64,000 bases of DNA from Poseidonibacter lekithochrous (GTDB taxonomy: Bacteria > Campylobacterota > Campylobacteria > Campylobacterales > Arcobacteraceae): contig NZ_CP054052.1 in NCBI RefSeq assembly GCF_013283835.1, positions 1 through 64,000 of the forward strand. The letters run 5' to 3'. Numbering within the stretch: position 1 is the stretch's first letter; every line of letters starts with the position of its first letter. Both the position numbers and the translations under genes were made by a program. The notes below the pieces were generated by a model, which ran no database searches, was not told the DNA's origin, and was given only the letters and a program-made list of their open reading frames with translations. Of the stretch, positions 8,307 to 18,505 are shown piece after piece.

Positions 8307-8335
8307 AAAAAAAAAGAGTACTTATAAAAGTACTC
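8307..8335 (-). terminator. Rho-independent terminator of the SRP RNA gene
   Basis: Read on the minus strand, an 8-bp stem (GAGTACTT with AAGTACTC, 4-base loop) is followed by nine T. It directly follows the last paired base of the SRP RNA. Confidence 0.85.
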
Positions 8336-8436
8336 CTCTCCAGATACCTAAACACACCACTAAGAGAGGTGCCTTGCTATGTTCCCATCCTGGGGCAGTG
8401 TCTCAACATAATGATTGTAAAGGTCTAAAGAAGAGC
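8336..8436 (-). ncRNA. ffs: Signal recognition particle RNA (4.5S type)
   Basis: RNA scaffold of the signal recognition particle, which binds Ffh to target nascent membrane proteins. On the minus strand, domain IV reads CAGG-AUG-GGAA-CAU-AGCA (8375-8392). This is the conserved symmetric loop (CAGG opposite AGCA) closed by a three-pair stem and a GGAA tetraloop. The ends pair as CUCUUC (8430-8435) with GGAGAG (8336-8341), giving a mature RNA of about 100 nt. A terminator follows at once. A TATAAT box lies upstream at 8484-8489, so the primary transcript may carry a 5' extension that is trimmed. Exact ends are inferred. Confidence 0.88.
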
Positions 8437-17891: not shown

Positions 17892-18027
17892 TTGTAGTTA
17901 CTGGAATTATGCCATTCTTAATATTAAAACTTCGAATATTTAAAAAACTATTTTTTTCTTTTTAGTGTTGTTATTGCATTATATTGTAAGAACTAATCTA
18001 TGTTAGTCAATGTATGAAACAGTAACA
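17892..18027. other. AT-rich stretch with no gene recognised
   Basis: No reading frame with a credible ribosome site on either strand. A TATATT-like -10 near 17979 could start a short plus-strand RNA that would end at the hairpin at 18028-18050, but this is weak. Confidence 0.3.
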
Positions 18028-18050
18028 GGGGAGTGATTAATTCCCCCTTT
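18028..18050 (+). terminator. Plus-strand hairpin terminator
   Basis: GGGGA (18028-18032) pairs with TCCCC (18042-18046) around a loop containing AGTGATTAA, followed by CTTTTATT. The same 10 bases GGAGTGATTA occur inverted at 18213-18222, inside the small-RNA gene described below. Confidence 0.5.
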
Positions 18051-18052
18051 TA

Positions 18053-18115
18053 TTAATATAGCTTAGTCGCAAAGACTAGGCATATTAAAAGTAATACTGT
18101 TAACTTAAAATACAT
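18053..18115 (-). CDS. 20-residue hydrophobic peptide, Ibs-like (putative type I toxin)
   Basis: The frame encodes MYFKLTVLLLICLVFATKLY: a positively charged end, a single membrane-spanning run of about 13 residues and a lysine near the C-terminus. An AAAGGA site lies five bases before the ATG. Length and style resemble the Ibs family of type I toxins (18-19 residues, one helix), though no homology is claimed. Its ribosome site and start are almost fully complementary to the 5' end of a putative small RNA encoded just upstream (18161-18250). Membrane insertion is predicted; toxicity is inference. Confidence 0.4.
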   Translation of the reverse strand: MYFKLTVLLLICLVFATKLY

Positions 18116-18249
18116 GTCATTCCTTTTATTGACACTCCCACCCATCACTACCCACAAGCTAAAAAAAAAGGCAAGAGGAAAAACCTCTTGCCTTCGGTGT
18201 CATTTTTTCAGGTAATCACTCCTGATAGAATGAACATGTATTTAAGTTA
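18101..18249. repeat. 22-bp inverted repeat pair linking the peptide start to the small-RNA 5' end
   Basis: Arms 18101-18122 and 18228-18249 are inverted copies, matching at 21 positions with one single-base gap in each. The first arm covers the ribosome site and start of the 20-residue peptide (minus strand); the second covers the expected 5' end of the small RNA. A further 10-bp inverted repeat, GGAGTGATTA, joins 18030-18039 with 18213-18222. Confidence 0.75.
18130..18208 (+). terminator. Long stem plus T tract on the plus strand
   Basis: TGACAC (18130-18135) can pair with GTGTCA (18197-18202), enclosing the inner 9-bp hairpin (18170-18192), and six T follow at 18203-18208. A plus-strand RNA opposite the peptide gene could end here, so this interval may be transcribed on both strands. 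Confidence 0.4.
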
Positions 18250-18250
18250 G
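18161..18250 (-). ncRNA. Putative small RNA, about 90 nt (candidate antitoxin RNA)
   Basis: Read on the minus strand, a promoter (18255-18283) would start transcription near 18249. The RNA would hold a 5' segment complementary to the start of the 20-residue peptide mRNA, a hairpin UCAGG-AGUGAUUA-CCUGA (18208-18225) and a strong terminator: GGCAAGAGG pairing with CCTCTTGCC, then nine T (18161-18192). No reading frame is present. The loop AGUGAUUA is complementary to the sequence behind the peptide stop codon. An antisense regulator of the peptide is inferred from these pairings. Confidence 0.5.
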
Positions 18251-18254
18251 TGTA

Positions 18255-18283
18255 ATGTTAACAGAAAAATAAAACTTTGTCAA
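18255..18283 (-). promoter_or_regulatory. Promoter of the putative small RNA
   Basis: On the minus strand TTGACA (18278-18283) and TAACAT (18255-18260) are separated by exactly 17 bp. A consensus -35 box is unusual in this lineage and marks a strong promoter. Confidence 0.6.
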
Positions 18284-18385: not shown

Positions 18386-18505
18386 GTGAGAAATATATTT
18401 ATTATAGGAATAATAGTAGTAGCTTTAGGCTATATGGTTGTAATTCAAGTAGATAAATACAACAGTATAAAAGAACAAAACAAAAAAGTCCAACAACAAA
18501 AATAG
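18386..18505 (+). CDS. 39-residue single-span membrane protein
   Basis: The frame starts with GTG after a strong site (TTAGGAGAGA). Residues 4-21 are a hydrophobic helix (IFIIGIIVVALGYMVVIQ), followed by a polar tail of K, Q, N and E. The tail codons run into a terminator. It has its own TATAAT box and terminator, so it is a complete small gene. Small membrane modulators of kinases or transporters have this form, but no family is recognised. Confidence 0.5.
   Translation: MRNIFIIGIIVVALGYMVVIQVDKYNSIKEQNKKVQQQK

Follow-up and report, generated by a model that had tools for sequence, protein, structure and literature searches.

In the par(pAD1) system (fst/RNA II) of Enterococcus, the antitoxin meets the toxin mRNA at two separate sites, a 3' kissing loop and a region that spans both ribosome site and start codon (PMC7472228). 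The Sib antitoxins of Escherichia coli type I systems are encoded on the opposite strand and overlap the entire ibs ORF (PMC4147584). In Helicobacter pylori, the aapA message carries 5'-3' self-inhibiting folds and its antitoxin IsoA is encoded on the opposite strand (PMC6733600). The pairs tisB/istR-1, shoB/ohsC, zor/orz, dinQ/agrB and timP/timR are divergently transcribed (PMC4147584, PMC7667032). Type III systems (toxIN and its relatives) consist of one promoter, an antitoxin RNA, a Rho-independent terminator and a toxin, and the terminator between the genes was called unique to type III (PMC5086642).

The locus described here lies on the minus strand of the window, i.e. the whole stretch of 64,000 nucleotides that was analysed (positions 1 to 64,000 of the Poseidonibacter lekithochrous contig NZ_CP054052.1). 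It is probably a type I-like toxin-antitoxin module organized as a single-promoter operon, with a promoter, a small RNA (RNA1), a terminator, a toxin ORF and a 3' kissing hairpin on one strand. Its predicted chemistry is of type I (an antisense RNA acting on the mRNA of a hydrophobic peptide), its operon layout of type III and its putative two-site kissing contact reminiscent of par(pAD1). This layout is undescribed in the literature searched: neither the arrangement nor anything relevant on type I systems in Arcobacter was found, most subscription journals and preprints being outside the scope of the search. A tandem layout would be missed because the type I antitoxins reviewed lie opposite the toxin gene or diverge from it, and at least one search pipeline in the literature scans the antisense strand only (PMC12390103). 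The module would extend type I-like control across Campylobacterales.

Comparison with described systems

The hydrophobic small protein expected of a type I system is present; the pairing RNA, and likewise the type III-like order of promoter, RNA gene, intrinsic terminator and toxin, are met by sequence only. The RNA of type III systems is a repeat array binding an endoribonuclease protein, whereas RNA1 is an antisense RNA directed at the message for a hydrophobic peptide of 20 residues. The type III criterion of a tandem-repeat RNA associated with a ToxN/TenpN/CptN-type RNase toxin is not met (no repeat array; 20-residue peptide).

The module shares with par(pAD1) two separated contact sites, namely a kissing contact between loops and a duplex that covers both ribosome site and start codon. 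However, the par(pAD1) RNAs are convergent, share a bidirectional terminator and contain direct repeats; these par/fst family criteria are not met at the module, which is in tandem on one strand. In RNA1, unlike in par(pAD1), kissing hairpin and terminator are separate elements. The peptide has 20 residues versus 33 for the par(pAD1) fst product, and no sequence relation between them was detected.

The ibs/Sib systems resemble the module by their hydrophobic peptide of about 20 residues, an antitoxin covering the ribosome site and start codon, and the occurrence of multiple divergent copies in a genome. They differ from it by their opposite-strand antitoxin, and here plus-strand promoters do not exceed chance. 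The Ibs_toxin model (PF13956) had no match above cut-off in 104 Arcobacteraceae genomes and none in the genome of the window; one control genome was above cut-off. The likeness to Ibs peptides suggested in the preliminary description is therefore valid for size and composition but does not extend to the Ibs Pfam model. The aapA/IsoA systems share with the module the bacterial order, a module-specific RNA control and 5'-3' self-inhibiting message folds. In contrast, IsoA is on the opposite strand, AapA is cationic with about 30 residues and the AapA mRNA is activated by 3' trimming. Finally, the tisB/istR-1, shoB/ohsC, zor/orz, dinQ/agrB and timP/timR pairs also have an adjacent, non-overlapping antitoxin gene with limited complementarity. 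Their two genes have separate promoters and the target is in the 5'UTR upstream of the start codon, whereas the genes are here in tandem behind one promoter and the start codon is covered.

Organization of the locus

The window locus begins, on the minus strand, with a sigma-70-type promoter recognized by its sequence (TTGACA, 17 nt, TAACAT; 18255-18283), the sole promoter of this type in the module. RNA1, the proposed antitoxin RNA delineated by the covariance models R1 and R2, extends over about 85 nt from its start point, inferred from the promoter position, to the terminator T-run (18161-18249). Its 5' tail (segment a, 18226-18249), identified from duplex energies and sister pairs, is antisense to the toxin start region. 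It is followed by the K hairpin UCAGG-AGUGAUUA-CCUGA (18208-18225), whose stem covaries and whose loop, proposed as the first contact site, covaries with a second loop, K'. The linker UGACAC (segment b, 18197-18202) precedes an intrinsic terminator (18161-18195), recognized by sequence and helix covariation and composed of a 12-pair stem (18195-18167) and the T-run.

The toxin ORF is on the same strand, 46 nt downstream of RNA1, and encodes the 20-residue hydrophobic peptide MYFKLTVLLLICLVFATKLY, the proposed toxin (18053-18115); a peptide HMM finds the same places. Four segments of the message, a', b', c and c', were delimited, like segment b, by covariation and the predicted fold. Segment b' (GUGUCA, 18130-18135) is the partner of b upstream of the ribosome site. 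Segment a' (18101-18122), the partner of a, comprises the end of the ribosome site, the start codon and the first codons, and the arms 18101-18122 and 18228-18249 form a duplex of -22.7 kcal/mol. Early codons (segment c, AACAGUA, 18087-18101) have their partner c' (UUACUGUU..., 18008-18025) beyond the K' hairpin. The latter (AGGGGG-AAUUAAUCAC-UCCCCU, 18027-18048), supported by the repeat and by covariation, directly follows the stop codon and its loop is complementary to the K loop. Homolog comparison also revealed a conserved G-rich 5'UTR segment GUGGGUAGUGAUGGGUGGGAGUG (18133-18155), for which the 3' hairpin arm CACUCCCC is a possible partner in a leaderless mRNA; the energy of this pairing is better than shuffled but no covariation was seen.

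The repeats of the preliminary description are exact (AAATACATGT/ACATGTATTT, TAACTTAAA/TTTAAGTTA and GGAGTGATTA/TAATCACTCC). The exact 10-bp inverted repeat is at 18030-18039 and 18213-18222. The promoter, terminator, 20-residue frame, complementary arms and 10-bp repeat reported in the preliminary description are all present. In contrast, its RNA "without a frame" has to be amended since RNA1 holds a 14-codon ATG frame, which is not conserved (ATA in the G011 copy). The module is present in one copy in the 3.57-Mb genome of the window.

Homologs and distribution

A BLAST DNA search of 60 relatives identified 8 further copies in 6 other genomes. They have in common the promoter, the leader, the loop hairpin, the terminator, the G-rich 5'UTR, the ribosome site, the 20-codon ORF and a hairpin just past the stop codon. 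The covariance model R1 of RNA1, built from 9 sequences, has matches in 38 of 104 Arcobacteraceae genomes, belonging to 14 of 20 genera and often carrying several copies. The peptide HMM, blind to RNA1, lands on the same places in six genomes (G084, G063, G073, G062, G067 and G080). The second model R2, built from 52 sequences, matches in 29 of 399 genomes of the order Campylobacterales, and copies of the whole architecture, as read from the loci, occur in at least six families beyond Arcobacteraceae. BLAST, the two covariance models and the peptide HMM yielded about 50 related loci in Arcobacteraceae and others in further Campylobacterales families. Arcobacter caeni and Arcobacter sp. UBA7394 are among the named holders. 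With R1, the locus is absent from eight of nine congeners; it is dispensable, since the closest relatives are often without it. The BLAST matches from G012 and most weak BLAST matches were false, as were the model matches in G011 (2180212, in a tRNA array), G078, G074 and G364.

No module match was found in phage records, and IMG/VR contained no match to the exact 3'-hairpin pattern. No Rfam family related to RNA1, Sib included, was recovered at gathering or permissive thresholds. The sole Rfam match in the window at the gathering threshold is the small signal recognition particle RNA (RF00169) at 8334-8431 on the minus strand. Two copies have an unusual composition. L052 (G082:C26) has no usable start codon for the peptide frame and is otherwise intact; it is probably an inactivated toxin with RNA1 retained. 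L064 (G079:C13, 1074-1312) has two tandem RNA1 units ahead of one toxin ORF.

Covarying pairings

Duplex energies were calculated for every RNA1 segment against every mRNA segment of 36 copies, with 5000 permutations. The 5' tail and start region (a:a') have a mean of -20.8 kcal/mol for cognate versus -8.3 kcal/mol for non-cognate partners. The corresponding means are -6.2 versus -3.9 for the loops (K:K'), -9.9 versus -6.1 for the linker and 5'UTR (b:b') and -11.4 versus -6.9 for the early ORF and the sequence after K' (c:c'). For each of the four pairings, none of the 5000 permutations reached the observed mean, and three control pairings showed no cognate effect in the same 36 copies. To reduce the effect of shared ancestry, partners were exchanged within 18 disjoint closest pairs. 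Cognate partners were then better in 18 pairs and worse in none for a:a', with 8 and 0 for K:K', 15 and 2 for b:b' and 12 and 3 for c:c'; the controls in this swap (9/9, 8/10 and 9/8) had no effect. The tail and start pairing was also found in nine copies from six other families that were not used in discovering the pairings (-20.1 versus -9.4; 0 of 20,000 permutations).

The K and K' loops change in step, with at least five classes: GTGATTA/TAATCAC, GTGACTA/TAGTCAC, GTGATGA/TCATCAC, GTGGTTA/TAACCAC and TGATAA/TTATCA. In the K stem, 98.7% of cells are paired and all five pairs show two-sided changes; the terminator helix has two-sided changes at 10 of 11 pairs, in an alignment that was fitted to the structure in both cases. 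Given the AT-richness of the window and the abundance of short frames, the arms might be chance inverted repeats around a random short frame. This can practically be dismissed: it is refuted by the permutation, sister-swap and held-out tests, and chance origin is ruled out because homologs rebuild the arms with different sequences copy after copy. The anatomy of the module and its covarying pairings are demonstrated.

Putative base-pairing between RNA1 and the mRNA is supported at three sites by these comparisons, without any measurement of physical binding; b:b' and c:c' could be partly structural only. It had been proposed that the locus is a new type I toxin-antitoxin system whose upstream RNA pairs with the ribosome site of the peptide and, by a loop, behind its stop codon. 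Both proposals are supported by the covariation of about 45 homologous copies, the toxicity of the peptide being still inferred. The compensating arm changes to be sought in Arcobacteraceae relatives were also found. Such dozens of natural RNA/target pairs with private codes would be material for the study of pairing specificity.

Transcription

The RNA1 promoter scores at least 9/12 in all 38 copies, partly by selection because the promoter was itself included in the search model. From the RNA1 start to the toxin start, none of the 38 copies has a sense promoter of at least 9/12, which is fewer than in shuffled sequences, and -10-like hexamers are also less frequent there than in shuffles. 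In the absence of a sigma-70-type toxin promoter above chance, the toxin is probably expressed from the single RNA1 promoter by readthrough of the terminator. This is the simplest reading of the sequences; the readthrough itself is inferred, and the toxin could still have a promoter recognized by a different type of sigma factor. The preliminary description did not include the single promoter with its probable terminator readthrough, two additional covarying pairings or the order-wide spread.

The window also has a plus-strand terminator-like stem at 18028-18046, from which antisense transcription had been thought possible. Past this stem, about 20 of 38 copies have at least five T within 8 nt. 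The true antitoxin might then be of the Sib/Ibs type: an RNA transcribed from the plus strand that overlaps the ORF and terminates at the K' stem. We regard this as very unlikely. The stem does exist, but many copies lack the T-run, which for the most part merely mirrors the Tyr and stop codons on the other strand. Plus-strand promoters occur only as often as in shuffled sequences, and both covarying partners belong to the minus strand.

Predicted folds and proposed mechanism

RNA1 alone is predicted to fold into the K hairpin and the terminator. The unconstrained fold of a 240-nt readthrough RNA (-77.8 kcal/mol) contains a:a', b:b', c:c', the terminator, K and K', and the start codon is fully paired in it. 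In cis, the terminator is enclosed by the nested pairings a:a' and b:b', and K:K' crosses both. In trans, a and b are in the correct antiparallel order for b' and a', and folding of the two transcripts, suggested previously as a check, predicts a gain of about 17 kcal/mol for RNA1 with the mRNA part over the separate RNAs.

In the mechanism that we infer, most transcripts would end at the terminator, giving RNA1, and a minority would read through and carry the toxin ORF. The readthrough leader would fold onto the start codon in cis by a:a' and b:b'; the start codon being masked, the nascent message would remain untranslated. Since this message carries the antitoxin in cis, a cleavage or refolding step is required, of which none was identified. 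RNA1 would capture in trans those toxin messages that are processed or have no leader. Contact would begin with kissing between the K loop and the K' loop behind the stop codon; the tail would then zip over ribosome site and start codon, and the linker would pair with the 5'UTR. This pairing would block initiation and offer a substrate for double-strand RNases, and c:c' may act as an extra self-inhibiting fold. If RNA1 drops, by shut-off or locus loss, and toxin message survives, the 20-residue single-helix membrane peptide would be made. Growth arrest by the peptide and a lowering of toxin mRNA translation or stability by RNA1 are inferences. The module would give a testable answer to how a toxin is co-transcribed with its antisense repressor and yet untranslated on the nascent RNA.

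As all partners are within one potential transcript, a:a' and b:b' nest around the terminator and no separate toxin promoter was found, the leader could also be a purely cis-acting attenuator controlling its own readthrough by start masking and termination, RNA1 having no role in trans. However, the crossing of a:a' by K:K' suits a kissing contact between two molecules, and one toxin is preceded by a doubled RNA1 (G079). In addition, RNA1 genes that have a promoter and a terminator yet are not followed by a toxin occur at G102:C4:131373, G117:C13:18863 (G117a), G125:C1:2445 (G125d), G126:C71:2540, G084:C1:496917 (G084a) and G079:C17:47534 (G079a). For two of them, pairing is good with toxins encoded in different genomes (G102 with G026a, -23.9; G084a with G073b, -21.6). 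The toxin-free genes favour a role of RNA1 in trans; an attenuator acting only in cis is distinctly unlikely. These toxin-free genes are possibly anti-addiction RNAs or remnants; that they confer immunity against incoming copies is speculation. We are evenly divided as to whether the type I-like module represents a new class of RNA-antitoxin operons. In such a class, a type III-like promoter and terminator would set the antitoxin to toxin ratio, a type I-like antisense control would act in cis on the nascent readthrough RNA and then in trans by kissing, each copy would have a private code and toxin-free RNA1 would provide immunity to incoming copies.

The peptide and its genomic context

The frame has 20 codons in 38 of 39 copies and 19 in the remaining one, and 38 of the 39 peptides have a C-terminal Tyr. 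These figures are partly obtained by construction because a length of 19-20 and a final Tyr entered the frame selection rule; the first nine copies, found by DNA alone, all encode 20 residues. Start codons are ATG (23 copies), TTG (12) and GTG (4), and the terminator T-run is 41-65 nt from the toxin start. Among homologous copies, the second codon position varies least and the third varies most. The sole Pfam match of five peptides was a weak and spurious one to a conotoxin precursor.

The window locus adjoins nrdB, as do the syntenic copies of G011 and G063. Other copies adjoin integrase, Fic, mobilisation and HTH genes, the neighbour proteins being judged by eye. A leader peptide of the downstream gene was ruled out, since the neighbours vary between copies. 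An intact unannotated copy (L134) is carried by the mobilizable plasmid pACIB (237.5 kb) of Aliarcobacter cibarius H743 (NZ_CP043858.1, 91359-91569). Its peptide and RNA1 are identical to those of the chromosomal G064 copy and both adjoin a Fic gene, which indicates recent horizontal movement. The plasmid copy suggests a role in the maintenance of mobile DNA.

The 20-residue peptide repressed by RNA1 might instead have a physiological function in the envelope. The toxicity of the peptide is without test, some known antisense-controlled small hydrophobic proteins are modulators and the synteny beside nrdB in the window, G011 and G063 indicates that the locus can be a stable resident. Nevertheless, an addiction module is the better fit for the patchy distribution, the several divergent copies per genome with private specificity, the plasmid copy and the mobile neighbours. 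The peptides are also similar to known toxins in their size, their hydrophobicity and their single helix. A riboregulated non-toxin is thus unlikely, although it has to be kept in mind.

Beside the module, the plus strand of the window contains a 39-residue frame with a GTG start and one membrane helix (18386-18505). A stretch 63% identical to it is found at the syntenic place in G011, and the frame likely corresponds to an unannotated small membrane protein.
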